64,000 nucleotides of DNA from Mesohalobacter salilacus (GTDB taxonomy: Bacteria > Bacteroidota > Bacteroidia > Flavobacteriales > Flavobacteriaceae): assembly GCA_003931895.1 (NCBI GenBank), contig RRZV01000082.1, positions 1 through 64,000 of the forward strand, read 5' to 3'. A program made the position numbers and the translations under genes. Positions within the stretch are counted from its first letter, which is position 1. Each line of letters begins with the position of its first letter. Positions 31,185 through 36,968 of the stretch are shown piece after piece. The notes beneath the pieces were generated by a model. It saw only the letters and a list, made by a program, of their open reading frames with translations. It searched no databases and was not told the DNA's origin.

Positions 31185-33029
31185 ATGAAAAATATATTTA
31201 TTCTCACTTTAAGCTTTTTAATATCACTAAATCTCACTGCACAGGAGAATTATGTCAAAGAGAACTACAATAAAGAGGAAATCAACATACCAATGCGTGA
31301 CGGCATAAATTTGCACACCACCATTTACTCCCCAAAAGATACTTCTCAAGACTATCCTATTTTGATGCAACGCACACCTTACAGTTCAAGACCTTATGGA
31401 GAAGGTGAATTCAAAAAACGCATCGGCCCCAATGAACACTTAATGAAAGAAGGCTATATCGTGGTATATCAAGATGTGCGTGGCCGATGGATGAGTGAAG
31501 GTGTTTATGACAATATGCGGGCGTATATTCCCAACAAAAAAGGCAAACAAGTCGATGAAGCTTCTGATACTTATGACAGCATAGAATGGCTCGTTAATAA
31601 TGTAAAAAACAACAATGGTAAAGTTGGTGTTTGGGGAACTTCGTATCCTGGGTTTTATTCTACTTATAGTTTGTTATCTAACCATCCAGCTTTATCAGCA
31701 GTTTCACCTCAAGCCCCAATTGGCGATTTTTATTTTGACGATTTTCATCACAATGGCGCTTATTTATTAAGCTATTGGTTAGCAACTACTGTATTTGGTT
31801 ATGAAAAAACAGAACCAACAGATAAAGCTTGGTATGCCGATAAATTTCCAAATTTTGGTACTCAAGACCAATATCAATTTTTCTTAGAAAACATGCCATT
31901 GAGTAAACTCGATAAATTTTATGGCGAAGACAATGTCTTTTGGCAACAACTCAAAGACCATCCTAACTATGATGAATTTTGGCAATCGCGTGGTATCATT
32001 CAACATCTCGATGAAATTGACATCAAACCTGCTGTAATGACCGTCGGCGGATTATTTGACGCTGAAGATTTATATGGGCCATTACACACCTATTCTGAAA
32101 TTGAAAAACACAACGATTTTTATAACATTTTTGTGTTTGGTCCTTGGAGTCATGGGCAATGGGCAAGCACAAGAACAAGACAAGCTGTTGGCAATGTCTA
32201 TTTTGGCGATGATATTTCCAACAATTACCAAAAAGATATTGAAACCCCGTTTTTCAATTATTTCCTCAAAGGCAAAGGTGATGTCAATGAATTATCAGAA
32301 GCCCAAATATTTGACACGGGCAAAAAAGAATGGAATTCTTACGAGGTCTGGCCACCACAAAACACAACTGAAACGACATTTTATCTCGGCGAAAATCAAA
32401 GTTTGACTTCTACACCAAACCCTGATTTTGAAAACACTTTCGTCAGTGATCCTAAAAAACCCGTGCCCTATTCAGAAGATATTAAAGTGGTGTTTACGCC
32501 AAGAAAATATATGACCGATGACCAACGTTTTGCTGCTCGACGAACAGATGTTTTGGTTTATGAAACTGAAGTTTTAGAAGAAGACCTAAAGTTTGTCGGA
32601 GACATTATTGCCAACCTCAATGTATCCACAACCGGAACAGCGGCCGATTGGATCGTCAAAGTCATCGATGTCTTTCCCGGCGATACTGAAGACCCGGAAG
32701 AAATGCAAGACCATTTAAAAATGAGCAATTACCACATGATGGTCAGAAGTGAAGTGATGCGTGGTCGCTTTAGAAACAGTTTTGAAAATCCAGAGCCATT
32801 CACCCCAAATGAAAAAACCCAAGTCAACATAGAATTACAAGACATCAACCATACCTTTAAAAAAGGTCACAAACTGCAAATCCAAATCCAAAGCTCCTGG
32901 TTTCCTTTAATCGACATGAACCCGCAAACCTATGTGGATAATATTTTTAAAGCCAAAGCAGCCGATTTTAAAAAGCAAACCCATACGGTTTATGGGGATT
33001 CTAAGCTTGTTTTTTATAAGTTGAAATAG
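31185..33029 (+). CDS. CocE/NonD family hydrolase (X-Pro dipeptidyl-peptidase type), secreted
   Basis: The 614-residue serine hydrolase has a signal peptide (ILTLSFLISLNLTAQ, cleaved near 20). The alpha/beta-hydrolase domain has nucleophile S153 in GTSYPG, acid GGLFDAEDLYGP and histidine GPWSHGQW. A C-terminal jelly-roll domain (about 400-614) with DVLVYETEVLEEDL, TAADWIVKVIDVFPGD and QIQSSWFPLIDMNP completes the CocE/amino-acid ester hydrolase architecture. It probably cleaves acyl esters or peptides in the periplasm or outside. A truncated copy of its C-terminus lies 1.3 kb downstream. Confidence 0.93.
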   Translation: MKNIFILTLSFLISLNLTAQENYVKENYNKEEINIPMRDGINLHTTIYSPKDTSQDYPILMQRTPYSSRPYGEGEFKKRIGPNEHLMKEGYIVVYQDVRGRWMSEGVYDNMRAYIPNKKGKQVDEASDTYDSIEWLVNNVKNNNGKVGVWGTSYPGFYSTYSLLSNHPALSAVSPQAPIGDFYFDDFHHNGAYLLSYWLATTVFGYEKTEPTDKAWYADKFPNFGTQDQYQFFLENMPLSKLDKFYGEDNVFWQQLKDHPNYDEFWQSRGIIQHLDEIDIKPAVMTVGGLFDAEDLYGPLHTYSEIEKHNDFYNIFVFGPWSHGQWASTRTRQAVGNVYFGDDISNNYQKDIETPFFNYFLKGKGDVNELSEAQIFDTGKKEWNSYEVWPPQNTTETTFYLGENQSLTSTPNPDFENTFVSDPKKPVPYSEDIKVVFTPRKYMTDDQRFAARRTDVLVYETEVLEEDLKFVGDIIANLNVSTTGTAADWIVKVIDVFPGDTEDPEEMQDHLKMSNYHMMVRSEVMRGRFRNSFENPEPFTPNEKTQVNIELQDINHTFKKGHKLQIQIQSSWFPLIDMNPQTYVDNIFKAKAADFKKQTHTVYGDSKLVFYKLK

Positions 33030-33080
33030 TGATAAGTCTTTTTTAAGCCAATTGATGTTAGGTAAACACTGTAAGGAAAA

Positions 33081-34205
33081 TTATTTCAAAATAACAAAGT
33101 CCCTAAAATTATCTTGGTTAATTATTTTAGTTTCCGCATCGTAAGCTTTTAAAAAAGTTTTAGAAAATTTTGATTTTGCACGAGGATTCCATTTAAATTC
33201 GTAGGCGGACATTTTGAGCCCTTGTTGTTCAACATAATCAATTTCTTGTTGTTGTCTTGTTCGCCAAAAATACGGTTTTGCAAATGTCATTTTATAGCTG
33301 TTTTGTTTTACTCTTTCAGAGATTAAAAAGTTTTCCCAAAGCATGCCTACATCGCTTCTTAGTTTTGGACTACTAAATTCCCCTATTATGGCATTTCGTA
33401 TCCCATTATCGTAAAAGTAAATTTTTCGTCCTCGTTTAATTTCGTTTCTTACGTTTTTATTAAAAGACCTTACTCTAAATAAAATGTAGCCTTTCTCCAA
33501 AATCTCGATATACCTTTGAATGGTATCTTTAGAAATAGATACTAATTGGCTCAGTTCGTTATAGTTTACTTCACTTCCAATTTGAAGTGCTAATCCTTGC
33601 ACAAGCTTTTCCAGAATCTCAGGTTTTCTAATATCTCCATGAGACAGGATATCTTTGTATAAATAACTGTTTACTAAATTCCTTAAGACCTCTCGTTCTG
33701 CACCTGCTTTAGCGTTAATGACCTCAGGGTACATGCCATAAACAAGCCTATTATTTAAGCTTTGCTTTGCCTGAAGGTAACCCATATGATTTTCGTATTC
33801 CTCCCAACTTACAGGGAATAATTCATATTCCCATTTTCTACCGGTAAGTGGTTCGTTGAGTTCATTAAATAAATCAAATGACGAAGAACCACTTATCCAT
33901 AATTGCACATCTTTAAATTGATCTGTTATAATTTTCAGGGTTAAGCCGATGTTTTTTATACGCTGGGCTTCATCGATAAATACAATTTTTTTTCCAGCGA
34001 TGAGTTGCTCAATTTCCTTTGTATTAGGTGTATCTAAACTTGTTCTTACAGATGGATCGTCTCCATTAAAAAAAGTATAATTCTTGCCTTTAAGCTGGCT
34101 TAAGATTAGCGTTGTTTTTCCAACTTGTCGTGGACCAATAATCATGATGGCTTTTCCAGTTCCTATTTTGCTTTCTATGAGAGATGTAATTGTTCTTGAA
34201 ATCAT
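33081..34205 (-). CDS. AAA-type ATPase with DUF4143 domain
   Basis: The 374-residue protein has Walker A GPRQVGKT (24-31), Walker B VFIDEAQRI (about 75-83) and the sensor region LWISGSSSFDLF. The winged-helix-containing DUF4143 half follows, with VNYNELSQLVSISKDTIQRYIEILEKGYILFRV in outline and a PD-(D/E)xK-like end (WRTRQQQEIDYVEQQGLKMSAYEFKW). The family is widespread, often horizontally transferred, and not functionally understood. Here it lies inverted between an intact hydrolase gene and a remnant copy of it, next to a toxin-antitoxin pair, as expected of an acquired gene. Confidence 0.88.
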   Translation of the reverse strand: MISRTITSLIESKIGTGKAIMIIGPRQVGKTTLILSQLKGKNYTFFNGDDPSVRTSLDTPNTKEIEQLIAGKKIVFIDEAQRIKNIGLTLKIITDQFKDVQLWISGSSSFDLFNELNEPLTGRKWEYELFPVSWEEYENHMGYLQAKQSLNNRLVYGMYPEVINAKAGAEREVLRNLVNSYLYKDILSHGDIRKPEILEKLVQGLALQIGSEVNYNELSQLVSISKDTIQRYIEILEKGYILFRVRSFNKNVRNEIKRGRKIYFYDNGIRNAIIGEFSSPKLRSDVGMLWENFLISERVKQNSYKMTFAKPYFWRTRQQQEIDYVEQQGLKMSAYEFKWNPRAKSKFSKTFLKAYDAETKIINQDNFRDFVILK

Positions 34206-34209
34206 ATTT

Positions 34210-34217
34210 CAAATATA
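34210..34217 (-). promoter_or_regulatory. -7 box TATATTTG of the DUF4143 ATPase gene
   Basis: This minus-strand TAnnTTTG match ends 4 nt before the ATG at 34205, implying little or no 5' leader. A TTATCTA/TAGATAA inverted repeat (34234-34240, 34255-34261) lies just upstream. Confidence 0.45.
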
Positions 34218-34306
34218 ACATAAAACTTTTATATTATCTAAAAAATATAATATATAGATAACATAATAGCTAAATGCTATACTATTTTGCTCAAGAATCC
34301 CTGTAA

Positions 34307-34570
34307 ATCTCGAATAGCCTGGAACGTCCAAAATCTTTTTCACCGAACGCAAAAATAGAAGTGAATATCGAATTACAGAACATTAACCATACTTTTAAAA
34401 AAGGACATAAATTTCAGATTCAAATTCAACCCTCTTGGTTTCCTTTAATCGATATGAATCCTCAGACCTATGTGGATAATATTTTAAAGGCCATAGCAGC
34501 CGATTTTCAAAAGCAGACGCATACCGTGTTTAGGGATTCTAAGCTTGTGTTTTATGGTTTAGATGACTAA
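34307..34570 (+). pseudogene. C-terminal remnant of a second CocE-type hydrolase gene
   Basis: The plus frame from 34307 to the stop at 34570 encodes about 87 residues that align without gaps to the C-terminus of the hydrolase at 31185-33029 (NIELQ, INHTFKKGHK, WFPLIDMNPQTYVDNI, KQTHTV, RDSKLVFY-like). Similarity starts abruptly near 34307, and an in-frame stop lies at 34304. The nucleophile and the rest of the enzyme are missing. A GTG at 34361 could start a 69-residue ORF, but this is best read as a broken duplicate whose 5' part was lost, perhaps when the ATPase gene came in. Confidence 0.85.
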
Positions 34571-34622
34571 TATCAAGATGTATTTGTTATCAAAAATAGT
34601 ACTTCATTAGAATATCCTCAAT

Positions 34623-34934
34623 CTATTTCAATCTCTCTTTTAGTCTCTGCATTAAATCCATACGTTCGTGAAATATGGCAATAATTAGAACCGGTAAATC
34701 AGGACGAATTAAAGCAAATATATAGTGCTTTTTGCAGTGCAGCATTTCAATTTTATGGGTTTTAATTTTGAATTCTTTTGATAAACTTTTTTGCTCTGCC
34801 AGCTTATCCAAACATAAATTTACTTCGTATGAGTATTTTAGAGCTTGTTTTCTTCCAAAATTTTCTAAGGTATAGGATATAATTTCTCTCAAATCATTTT
34901 CAGCATCGACAGATAATTGATATTTTATTTTCAC
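34623..34934 (-). CDS. ParE/RelE-family toxin
   Basis: The 103-residue protein has the RelE/ParE fold pattern: KYQLSVDAENDLREIISYTLENFG at the N-terminus, then a basic middle (EFKIKTHKIEMLHCKKHYIFA) and IIAIFHERMDLMQRLKERL at the end. ParE-type toxins poison DNA gyrase, and RelE types cut mRNA. HERMDLMQRL is more ParE-like, but the target is inference. It follows the antitoxin gene after 11 nt. Confidence 0.85.
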   Translation of the reverse strand: MKIKYQLSVDAENDLREIISYTLENFGRKQALKYSYEVNLCLDKLAEQKSLSKEFKIKTHKIEMLHCKKHYIFALIRPDLPVLIIAIFHERMDLMQRLKERLK

Positions 34935-34945
34935 TTTTAGATATT

Positions 34946-35182
34946 TTAGGATTTTAAAACATCATCTGTAATTTCTTTTAAGGATTTTGGTGATACTTGT
35001 GCGTTTTCAATGCGGAAAAGTAAAAGTTCTTCAAGTTTATTCCAATCCCTCTGTTCATCTACAGCATTGGGATTTATGAGTTTATCAAGAATAAGGTCTT
35101 TGATAGACTTTCCTTGTAAGGCTGCCAAGGCTTTAATTTTTTGGTGTTGTTCGGAGGATATTTCAATGCTTAATCTGCTCAT
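34946..35182 (-). CDS. Ribbon-helix-helix antitoxin (ParD-like)
   Basis: This 78-residue protein starts with an RHH DNA-binding region (RLSIEISSEQHQKIKALAALQGKSIKDLILDKL in outline, residues 3-37). An acidic C-terminal tail (WNKLEELLLFRIENAQVSPKSLKEITDDVL) should wrap the toxin. It is upstream of the toxin, the normal type II order. A 19-bp palindrome in the promoter is the likely autoregulatory site. Confidence 0.86.
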   Translation of the reverse strand: MSRLSIEISSEQHQKIKALAALQGKSIKDLILDKLINPNAVDEQRDWNKLEELLLFRIENAQVSPKSLKEITDDVLKS

Positions 35183-35186
35183 ATGA

Positions 35187-35216
35187 CAAATTTACACAAA
35201 TTGTACATTTGTGCAA
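35187..35216 (-). promoter_or_regulatory. parDE promoter with palindromic operator in the spacer
   Basis: On the minus strand TTG (35216-35214), a 19-nt spacer (35213-35195) and TAAATTTG (35194-35187) make a consensus Bacteroidetes promoter. The spacer is itself a palindrome, CACAAAT-N5-ATTTGTG, so bound antitoxin would block sigma contact. The -7 box ends 4 nt before the antitoxin ATG, so the mRNA may be leaderless. Confidence 0.75.
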
Positions 35217-35369
35217 AATTTTAAATTTTGAAAATATCAAATTTAAACTAAAGAATAAATACAAGGCTAAATTCATATTAATACCCGAAATTAAGAATCA
35301 TGATAAATTCATTTAGGAGATATTATATGCGTCCATCATAATTTCAATTCAAAACCTGATTGAATTCCT

Positions 35370-35393: not shown

Positions 35394-36968
35394 ATGGCAT
35401 CCCAACCGCATTTTATAGATATCAGAGTCAGTCCCGAGGTGGCTCACGATATGGTAGAACTCAAAAAAGTACTCGCTAAAAAAATCGAAGTGTCTGAAAA
35501 AAATATCTCAGACTTTAAAATTATAAAACGCTCCATAGACGCCAGGTCCAGACAAATCAAATATCAAATCAGATTGGCTTATGCTTTAAATAATGAACCT
35601 GTCATTTGGGAAGACAATCAAGTTAAAAATTACAAACAAGTTACGGAGAAGTCTAAACCAGTTTTAGTCATAGGTAGTGGTCCTGCTGGACTATTTGCCG
35701 CACTAAAGCTTTTAGAACACGGTCTCAAGCCAATTATAATAGAACGCGGTAAAGACGTCAGATCCAGAAGACGAGATTTAGCTAAAATCAATAAAGAGCA
35801 TATTGTCAACCCAGAATCTAATTATTGTTTTGGGGAAGGTGGAGCTGGAACCTATTCAGATGGTAAATTATACACACGATCTGGTCATAAAAAATCTATA
35901 AACGCTGTGTTACAAACTTTTGTGCAGCACGGCGCCAGTCAGGATATACTTATTGATGCTCATCCGCATATTGGCACTAATAAATTACCAAATATTATAA
36001 CTGCGATAAGGGAAACCATTCTCAATCATGGTGGTGAAATTCATTTCAATACCAAACTGACTGATTTTATCATTAAGGATAAAAACATCCTTGGTATTGA
36101 GGTCAATCATAAAACCCCTCTGTATGCCGATGCTTGTATTTTAGCCACAGGCCATTCAGCAAGAGATATTTTTTATCTTTTGCACGACAGAAAGATAAAA
36201 ATAGAATTTAAGCCTTATGCGATGGGTGTGCGGGTAGAGCATCCGCAATCTTTAATAGATCAAATCCAATACAAAACCCCAAATCGGGGTGAATGCTTAC
36301 CGCCGTCAGCTTATAGTTTGGTAGAGCAGGTGGATGATAAAGGCGTGTATTCATTTTGTATGTGTCCGGGCGGTATTGTGGCACCATGCGCAACAGCAGA
36401 AGGCGAAGTGGTGACTAATGGTTGGTCGCCTTCTAAGAGAAATAATCCTTATGCCAATTCTGGAATAGTTGTTACAGTCGATGATGAAGTACTCACAGAT
36501 TTTGAGGAATTTGGCGCTTTAAAAGGTCTAAAATTTCAAGAACACATCGAGCAAAAATGTTGGCAGCTTGCTGGAAAAACTCAACGTGTCCCTGCACAAC
36601 GGCTTCAGGATTTTTTAAAGAAACGAAAGTCATTACACATCCCCAAAAACTCTTATTTCCCAGGAACGACTTCGGTAGAGATGGATGAGATATTTCCTAA
36701 GGCAATTGTCAAAAGACTCCGAGAAGGTTTTAAAAAGTTTAGCCAAAAAATGAAAGGTTTTGATCATAAAGATGCGGTTATTTTAGCCCCGGAATCCCGA
36801 ACTTCTTCTCCTGTGAGGATACCAAGAGATAAGGAATCTTTACAGCATGTAGAATTCAAAAGTCTGTTTCCCTGTGGAGAAGGCGCAGGTTATGCCGGTG
36901 GAATTGTATCTGCAGCTATCGATGGTGAACGCTGTGCGGATGCTGTTTTTGAATACATTAAATCTTAA
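35394..36968 (+). CDS. FAD-dependent oxidoreductase (COG2509-like)
   Basis: The 524-residue protein has an N-terminal alpha/beta domain of about 85 residues, then the dinucleotide-binding motif VLVIGSGPAGLFAA (GSGPAG at 94-99). NYCFGEGGAGTYSDGKLYTRS, ACILATGHSARDIF, KPYAMGVRVEHPQ, YSFCMCPGGIVAP and, near the end, FPCGEGAGYAGGIVSAAIDG (FAD contact) follow. This is the uncharacterised FAD-dependent dehydrogenase family. Substrate and partner are unknown. The ChaN-like gene follows after 52 nt. Confidence 0.88.
   Translation: MASQPHFIDIRVSPEVAHDMVELKKVLAKKIEVSEKNISDFKIIKRSIDARSRQIKYQIRLAYALNNEPVIWEDNQVKNYKQVTEKSKPVLVIGSGPAGLFAALKLLEHGLKPIIIERGKDVRSRRRDLAKINKEHIVNPESNYCFGEGGAGTYSDGKLYTRSGHKKSINAVLQTFVQHGASQDILIDAHPHIGTNKLPNIITAIRETILNHGGEIHFNTKLTDFIIKDKNILGIEVNHKTPLYADACILATGHSARDIFYLLHDRKIKIEFKPYAMGVRVEHPQSLIDQIQYKTPNRGECLPPSAYSLVEQVDDKGVYSFCMCPGGIVAPCATAEGEVVTNGWSPSKRNNPYANSGIVVTVDDEVLTDFEEFGALKGLKFQEHIEQKCWQLAGKTQRVPAQRLQDFLKKRKSLHIPKNSYFPGTTSVEMDEIFPKAIVKRLREGFKKFSQKMKGFDHKDAVILAPESRTSSPVRIPRDKESLQHVEFKSLFPCGEGAGYAGGIVSAAIDGERCADAVFEYIKS

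Follow-up and report, generated by a model that had tools for sequence, protein, structure and literature searches.

The prophage e14 of Escherichia coli, at icd, is said to replace the 3' end of its host gene and to leave the old end behind as a remnant. Restriction-modification genes, in work attributed to Nobusato in 2000 and Furuta in 2010, reportedly insert with long target duplication. The locus described here, in which a hydrolase gene is followed by a DUF4143 ATPase gene and a second copy of the hydrolase 3' end, resembles e14 in its seemingly replaced gene end and its remnant, whereas e14 carries its own integrase. The likeness to the restriction-modification insertions, in the accessible part of that literature, lies in defence or selfish genes without a transposase and in direct repeats of about 100 bp, whereas the hydrolase copies resemble diverged alleles rather than copies of one target.

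In homology-facilitated illegitimate recombination, linear incoming DNA is homologous at one end and joined illegitimately at the other, as described for E. coli conjugation in the accessible text of PMC3240628. That process, which also belongs to naturally competent species, is known from laboratory crosses and the present case is inferred from sequence; both have foreign DNA with a one-sided homology anchor and an other side joined without homology, and the present case differs in that the anchor gene seems to have been made complete again while the old resident end persists downstream. The same process has been proposed for effector modules of Vibrio cholerae, in which the older effector 3' end is shifted back (PMC5361080, accessible part). 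T6SS effector/immunity modules of that species and Rhs 3' ends, as that part presents them, share with our locus the entry of a module through an anchor in the conserved portion of a gene, with older 3' ends shifted downstream; in those systems the variable cargo is the end of the gene itself, whereas here the host is a conserved enzyme and the cargo an unrelated defence candidate.

PDC-S01, an ATPase fused to a PD-(D/E)XK domain, is ranked fourth in frequency among the defence systems of prokaryotes, and most candidates of this kind still await validation (PMC12988326, accessible part). The joining mechanism outlined above is known elsewhere; in the accessible parts of the literature naming DUF4143, PF13635 or PDC-S01 we found neither a report of it for this family nor any other account of their route into chromosomes. 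Should one-sided homology at gene 3' ends be that route, displaced tails would be dateable scars of defence-gene gain, movement without transposase or integrase would be explained while the host gene is spared, and a signature would be available for counting acquisitions of any accessory gene. We regard the present locus as a new case of a known kind of event, and the excess of scars around PDC-S01 genes as worth following.

An intact CocE gene, a DUF4143 ATPase gene and a second CocE end

The window, the whole 64,000-nucleotide stretch of Mesohalobacter salilacus DNA that was analysed (contig RRZV01000082.1), contains the following features at this locus.

31185..33029, plus strand: intact CocE/NonD-family hydrolase gene (Peptidase_S15 and PepX_C), 614 codons (Pfam)
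33030..33080, no strand: spacer from the CocE stop to the ATPase 3' end
33081..34205, minus strand: DUF4143 ATPase gene (AAA_14 and DUF4143; PADLOC PDC-S01), 374 aa, frame uninterrupted (Pfam, PADLOC)
34214..34281: imperfect A+T-rich palindrome 5' of the ATPase start codon, 73.5% self-complementary over 68 nt
34310..34570, plus strand: CocE 3' end, presumably displaced, codons about 530-614 (repeat and constraint comparison)
34571..34622, no strand: spacer from the CocE remnant to the ParE gene
34623..34934, minus strand: ParE-family toxin of a type II toxin-antitoxin pair (PF05016, 9.5e-10)
34946..35182, minus strand: ParD-family antitoxin (PF09386, 1.3e-24)
35394..36968, plus strand: FAD-dependent protein, right border of the variable stretch, common to a close relative, G010 (Pfam)

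An earlier note on this DNA had described a repeat of the CocE C-terminal codons at 34307-34570, and self-comparison bears this out. The direct repeat (32775-33017 and 34313-34555) covers 243 nt at 79% identity with a start-to-start distance of 1538, and the corresponding protein match covers CocE residues 531-613 of 614 (79.5% over 83 aa, E 2e-35). Its estimate of about 87 repeated codons holds for the frame, which is open for 87 codons, but recognisable CocE homology extends over 83-84 of them. Likewise, similarity does lie beyond the inverted ATPase gene, as the note had it, but begins near 34310, about 105 nt past the ATPase start codon at 34205, and fades in rather than starting directly at the gene. 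Chance similarity of the tail to CocE is ruled out by the length of the repeat, its E value and the rarity of such repeats in self-comparison. Pfam recognises only PepX_C in the remnant (profile positions 143-205 of 217), compared with Peptidase_S15 and PepX_C in the intact gene, and the whole CocE protein matches the rest of the window genome once, distantly, at 27%.

The cargo between the two CocE ends consists of a single AAA_14 and DUF4143 gene, in which Pfam profiles recognised no integrase. Its product matches the PADLOC PDC-S01 model PDLC04789 at 1e-160, with residues 1-371 aligned to profile positions 1-373 of 375; the likeness to PDC-S01 is this full-length model match, and the name applies to the protein only. 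The Walker motifs are kept, and in a D323...E336-x-K338 motif the D and E are invariant and the K nearly so across 16 sequences. Relatives of this ATPase occur in 555 plasmid and 18 phage records at E 1e-5, nearly all at less than 60% identity. The palindrome before the start codon is a possible operator, and the ATPase is a candidate for a solitary, perhaps self-regulated, defence or selfish gene. The ParDE pair that the note had placed at the site is also there by Pfam: the two genes adjoin on the minus strand with the antitoxin ParD upstream, which is the ParDE arrangement.

Divergence and constraint of the two ends

Over 84 codons, the intact end and the tail differ by 34 silent and 23 amino-acid-changing differences (pS 0.72, pN 0.11); counted by codon, 38 are identical, 28 silently different and 18 encode another amino acid. 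For comparison, the intact window gene and that of G010 differ over the same codons by 28 silent and 11 amino-acid-changing differences (pS 0.61). A tail unconstrained since the two copies parted would be expected to show about four amino-acid changes per silent one. Amino-acid changes are few and silent ones many, so most of the divergence would have arisen while both copies were in working genes.

Polarising the changes places the amino-acid changes mainly on the tail. With G010 as reference, silent changes are evenly split (13 on the intact end, 11 on the tail) and amino-acid changes number 2 and 12 (p 0.013); the corresponding amino-acid counts are 1 and 13 with G011 and G023 as reference (p 0.0018) and 3 and 11 with G026 (p 0.057). 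By these counts the window tail is losing constraint, and the even silent split together with the amino-acid changes on the tail suggests that it belonged for a long time to a functioning gene before being severed from it.

That the tail is an independent functional small gene is thus barely credible, even though its frame is open throughout. The listed ORF offers no start codon before a GTG at 34361, which already lies well within the CocE-like sequence; amino-acid changes are in excess on the tail; and the corresponding tail of G026 opens with an in-frame stop. A conserved small gene, which the earlier note had named as an observation that would speak against its own account, was not seen in this decaying tail and is rejected by the internal start and the amino-acid-change excess.

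The species-level silent divergence also bears on insertion with a long target duplication, in which the ATPase would have arrived together with about 250 bp of exactly copied CocE sequence, the two copies diverging afterwards and the intact gene perhaps having its allele replaced later on. Duplications on the order of 100 bp are reported for the insertion of restriction-modification units (PMC3874152, accessible part), and a short repeat at xerD, described below, is nearly identical; but CocE copies that differ silently at species level and by few amino-acid changes are a misfit unless the intact end was later replaced, which makes this explanation quite improbable.

CocE and its downstream DNA in relatives

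A single, close full-length CocE was found in 24 of 26 genus relatives; in G016 the gene is represented by a C-terminal fragment at the edge of a contig, and in G014 by no more than a distant match. None of the 26, four of which are less than 90% complete, has a second close full-length CocE, so the intact second copy without the ATPase gene that the earlier note had proposed to look for in relatives did not turn up. A few relatives have CocE paralogues of about 30% identity (G017, G021, G025 and, as a split gene, G023). A second C-terminal copy at 70% identity or more is confined, among the genus genomes, to the window genome and G026, an uncultured Psychroflexus assembly (CAJXVZ010000064.1). 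This absence of second copies and the species-level silent divergence together point to the two window ends being alleles of different lineages rather than products of a local duplication.

The DNA behind CocE differs from genome to genome. The window genome has the ATPase and ParDE; in G010, DUF433-DUF5615, an orphan ParD and DUF1456 separate CocE from the FAD gene that it shares with the window; and G026 has ParDE and DUF433-DUF5615 followed by its own CocE tail, without the ATPase. None of these cargo genes lies behind CocE in G011 (Mesohalobacter halotolerans), where other genes follow, or in G023. These observations support the suspicion, already voiced in the earlier note, that the site is an insertion hot spot. 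No ATPase of this type lies directly behind CocE in any of 105 stretches searched, and no donor was found among them, which counts against the import favoured below.

G010 retains two degraded pieces of a gene close to the window ATPase, at about 78-80% (L033 4966-5429 and L178); such pieces lie 4.6 kb downstream of its CocE. About 440 nt are missing from within the first, where 7 nt overlap at the joint, and a gene next to it was labelled transposase-like by eye. At the G010 site (L033 9035-9830) ParE was not found and the DUF433-DUF5615 pair is joined within the last two ParD codons, which left the antitoxin an orphan. In G026 (L035 10943-11289) the DUF5615 gene is broken directly before the displaced CocE end. 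As a comparison cargo, DUF433-DUF5615 gave one match in 199 genomes, at a locus in which no internal repeat was found, a sample too small to show whether DUF4143 stands apart in this pattern.

Which CocE end is resident

ParD of the window type occurs in 3 of 27 genus genomes, each time beside CocE, and a search of 299 family genomes, a sample with one other genus member, returned only the window's own copy. Between the window and G026, ParDE is 76.0% and the CocE end 76.8% identical, and ParE follows the intact CocE in G026 and the tail in the window, an indirect sign that the tail is still joined to the resident downstream DNA. The association of ParDE with the CocE end thus looks old, and the tail beside ParDE would be the resident end; in that case the tail probably occupies the place of the former CocE end, and the CocE 3' part and the ATPase are the newcomers. 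The ParD gene and its upstream 40 nt (window 34947-35227, L033 8991-9270) are 95% identical to G010, compared with 84% for CocE and 88% for the FAD gene, and this antitoxin region was likely exchanged recently between the two lineages.

Phylogenetic comparison of the CocE gene gave different partners for its two parts. The 5' half groups the window with G010 (support 100/99), and grouping with G011 is rejected (p 0.0026); for the 3' part the window copy falls with G011 in the best tree (70/66), against p 0.052 for a grouping with G010. Codon 325 was adopted as the dividing point after inspection of sliding windows. Codons 325-530 alone reject neither grouping (G010, p 0.10; G011, p 0.20). A breakpoint scan of CocE placed its strongest signals near the signal peptide (codons 34-43), with p 0.07 near codon 337 and a signal at codon 605 (p 0.002) in a triplet without the window gene. 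The window CocE gene may well be a hybrid of a resident 5' half and an imported 3' part.

In trees of the 84 codons, which are short and poorly supported, the two tails do not form one clade (rejected, p 0.04), so the window and G026 tails would be separate events. This qualifies another expectation of the earlier note, which had named relatives with the same remnant and no ATPase as evidence against its account: G026 comes near that result with its own tail and no ATPase, but its tail would not be the same remnant. The account in question was a tandem duplication of CocE in which the second copy lost its 5' part as the ATPase arrived. A clade of the window's intact end and tail is not rejected (p 0.3), and the best tree joins the G026 tail with G026's own intact copy (90/94), as in-lineage duplication would give; but second copies are missing from the relatives, the G026 tail has other cargo and no ATPase, and the xerD, cysN, symporter and tRNA cases described below would each need a duplication of their own. 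We therefore consider a tandem duplication very unlikely. A recent one is ruled out by the missing second copies, the species-level silent divergence and the pattern of change; pS 0.72 with pN 0.11 and the displacement of a resident tail at xerD weigh against the duplication with 5' loss as the note had framed it.

Proposed origin of the displaced tail

We lean towards the reading that a fragment of a related flavobacterium, holding a CocE 3' part with a PDC-S01 ATPase gene behind it, recombined into CocE by homology and was joined illegitimately at its other end, pushing the resident tail downstream. The fragment would have entered an ancestor and recombined inside CocE, and its other end would have been joined without homology about 84 codons before the resident CocE stop. 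CocE would thereby have been kept intact as a hybrid and the ATPase gained, with the resident 3' end moved downstream, still attached to the resident ParDE and decaying. The order of intact anchor gene, new cargo and displaced resident end is the one that homology-facilitated illegitimate recombination predicts. What the sequences show directly are the two copies with their allele-like divergence, the relaxed constraint on the tail, its ParDE surroundings, a separate tail in G026, and the xerD arrangement described below with its empty site in a relative. That there was a single event, that the intact 3' part is the import, and that the route was this kind of recombination, as in natural transformation, are inferences.

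The boundaries of the repeats bear on a rival, site-specific insertion, in which an integrase, since lost or acting in trans, would have put a small element with a replacement end into the CocE 3' end. The order of intact gene, cargo and displaced end fits this. At the window CocE boundary, however, similarity fades in (17, 21 and 26 matches in the first three 30-nt blocks) and there is no identical core, the longest identical run being 20 nt at position 154 of the repeat; the window and G026 tails also begin at different codons, 531 and 547, and the window cargo has no integrase by Pfam. The G026 tail, by contrast with the window boundary, has 34 identical bases starting 8 nt into a repeat of 86% overall identity, which we estimate to be mildly unusual against about 21 expected at that identity. 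Similarity starts sharply at four loci described below, those of the symporter, xerD, YifB and tRNA-Ala, with 17 identical bases at the xerD boundary and a displaced tRNA-Ala copy starting about 2 nt before the anticodon. A position near the tRNA anticodon is a classic integrase site. The sharp starts and identical runs at xerD, G026 CocE and tRNA-Ala would thus also fit an integrase; for the window locus we judge such an insertion unlikely, if far from negligible.

Repeats around other DUF4143 genes

The flanks of other DUF4143 genes were compared, left against right over 600 nt, and a direct repeat was counted at a score of at least 17. The loci had been gathered by homology, with the window ATPase and PF13635 as queries, and form a non-random sample; they comprised 59 DUF4143 ORFs, 55 of which had at least 300 nt on both sides, and setting aside L169, L170 and L177, whose site was already counted, left 52. 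Direct repeats flank 9 of these 52 genes, compared with 2 of 354 similarly sized control ORFs (p 2e-7). The controls were drawn from CocE flanks of other genomes with core and accessory genes pooled, and some of the excess may therefore be a property of accessory genes at large. The nine are as follows.

1: window CocE end
2: tRNA-Ala (L248), 90 nt
3: sodium/solute symporter end (L261), 107 nt, 88 matches
4: cysN end (L150), 82 nt, 69.5%
5: xerD (L166)
6: 3' flank of a threonine-dehydrogenase-like gene (L262), labelled by eye
7 and 8: L165 and L174, palindromic, not gene ends
9: L163, minisatellite-like array

The L163 repeat looks like a minisatellite array and is not readable as an insertion scar, though it is counted among the nine. 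With the window excluded, host gene ends or 3' flanks account for 5 of 51 against 2 of 354 (p 0.0005) and coding or tRNA ends for 4 of 51 (p 0.003), classes that were assigned after the hits had been seen. A 16-nt repeat at L173/L177 with a score of 16, at the control 99% level, was left uncounted.

The xerD case allows the displaced end to be compared with an empty site. The window genome has five DUF4143 genes, one of which (L166) abuts xerD. By eye, its intact xerD ends in ...NYHPMAKL and the stop, and beyond the ATPase lie an end reading ...NYHPMAK and the stop and a small membrane-protein gene. In G011, without the ATPase, xerD has that same ...NYHPMAK end followed by the same membrane-protein gene, an arrangement that we read by eye as the empty site; we take this gene to be GlsB-like. 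The xerD tail and its downstream gene thus match the empty site, and the displaced DNA is contiguous with the resident downstream region. The comparison covered 31 genomes, a set without G026; G010, the other close relative, has a different end with different DNA behind. By this match, the displaced end at xerD is the resident one. The xerD repeat has 21 matches in 22 nt, too short for allele divergence to be assessed there.

A bolder reading extends these cases to the whole family: PDC-S01 (DUF4143) genes would be one-gene mobile units that carry a host gene 3' end along and displace the resident end, perhaps with their own AAA ATPase - PD-(D/E)XK nuclease cutting the empty allele, in a homing-like cycle that always restores the host gene. 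We hold this to be speculative and distinctly unlikely.

When 1.75 Mb of sequence (83 stretches, of which two overlap) was compared with itself, 33 repeat pairs emerged, and an intact gene end with an orphan copy occurs in three places: at CocE in the window, in G026, and at a YifB-family gene of Robertkochia (L131). In the last (Robertkochia sp., L131 14394-18639) the displaced YifB/ComM gene end covers 182 nt at 95.6%, and the order, by eye, is YifB/ComM, an HxlR-like regulator, quinone-reductase-like, AhpC-like and thioesterase-like genes, and the displaced YifB end. This tail flanks an ordinary-looking operon, and the route would thus not be confined to DUF4143.

In L248 (2331-4429) an intact tRNA-Ala(GGC) gene stands on one side of the DUF4143 gene, and on the other side the 3' half of that tRNA gene is repeated together with the sequence that follows it; no integrase was recognised by eye among the ORFs listed within 6.3 kb. 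Genes labelled by eye as GGGPS-like and tadA-like also enclose DUF4143 genes (L165, L169 and L170), on both sides in the window genome and in G010, and with GGGPS alone in front in G026. Palindromic repeats stand before the start codon and after the stop in L165, L169 and L174 (53-65 nt) and in L170 (20 nt), and the empty GGGPS-tadA site in G011 is without them. These repeats look like family-specific operators or element ends.
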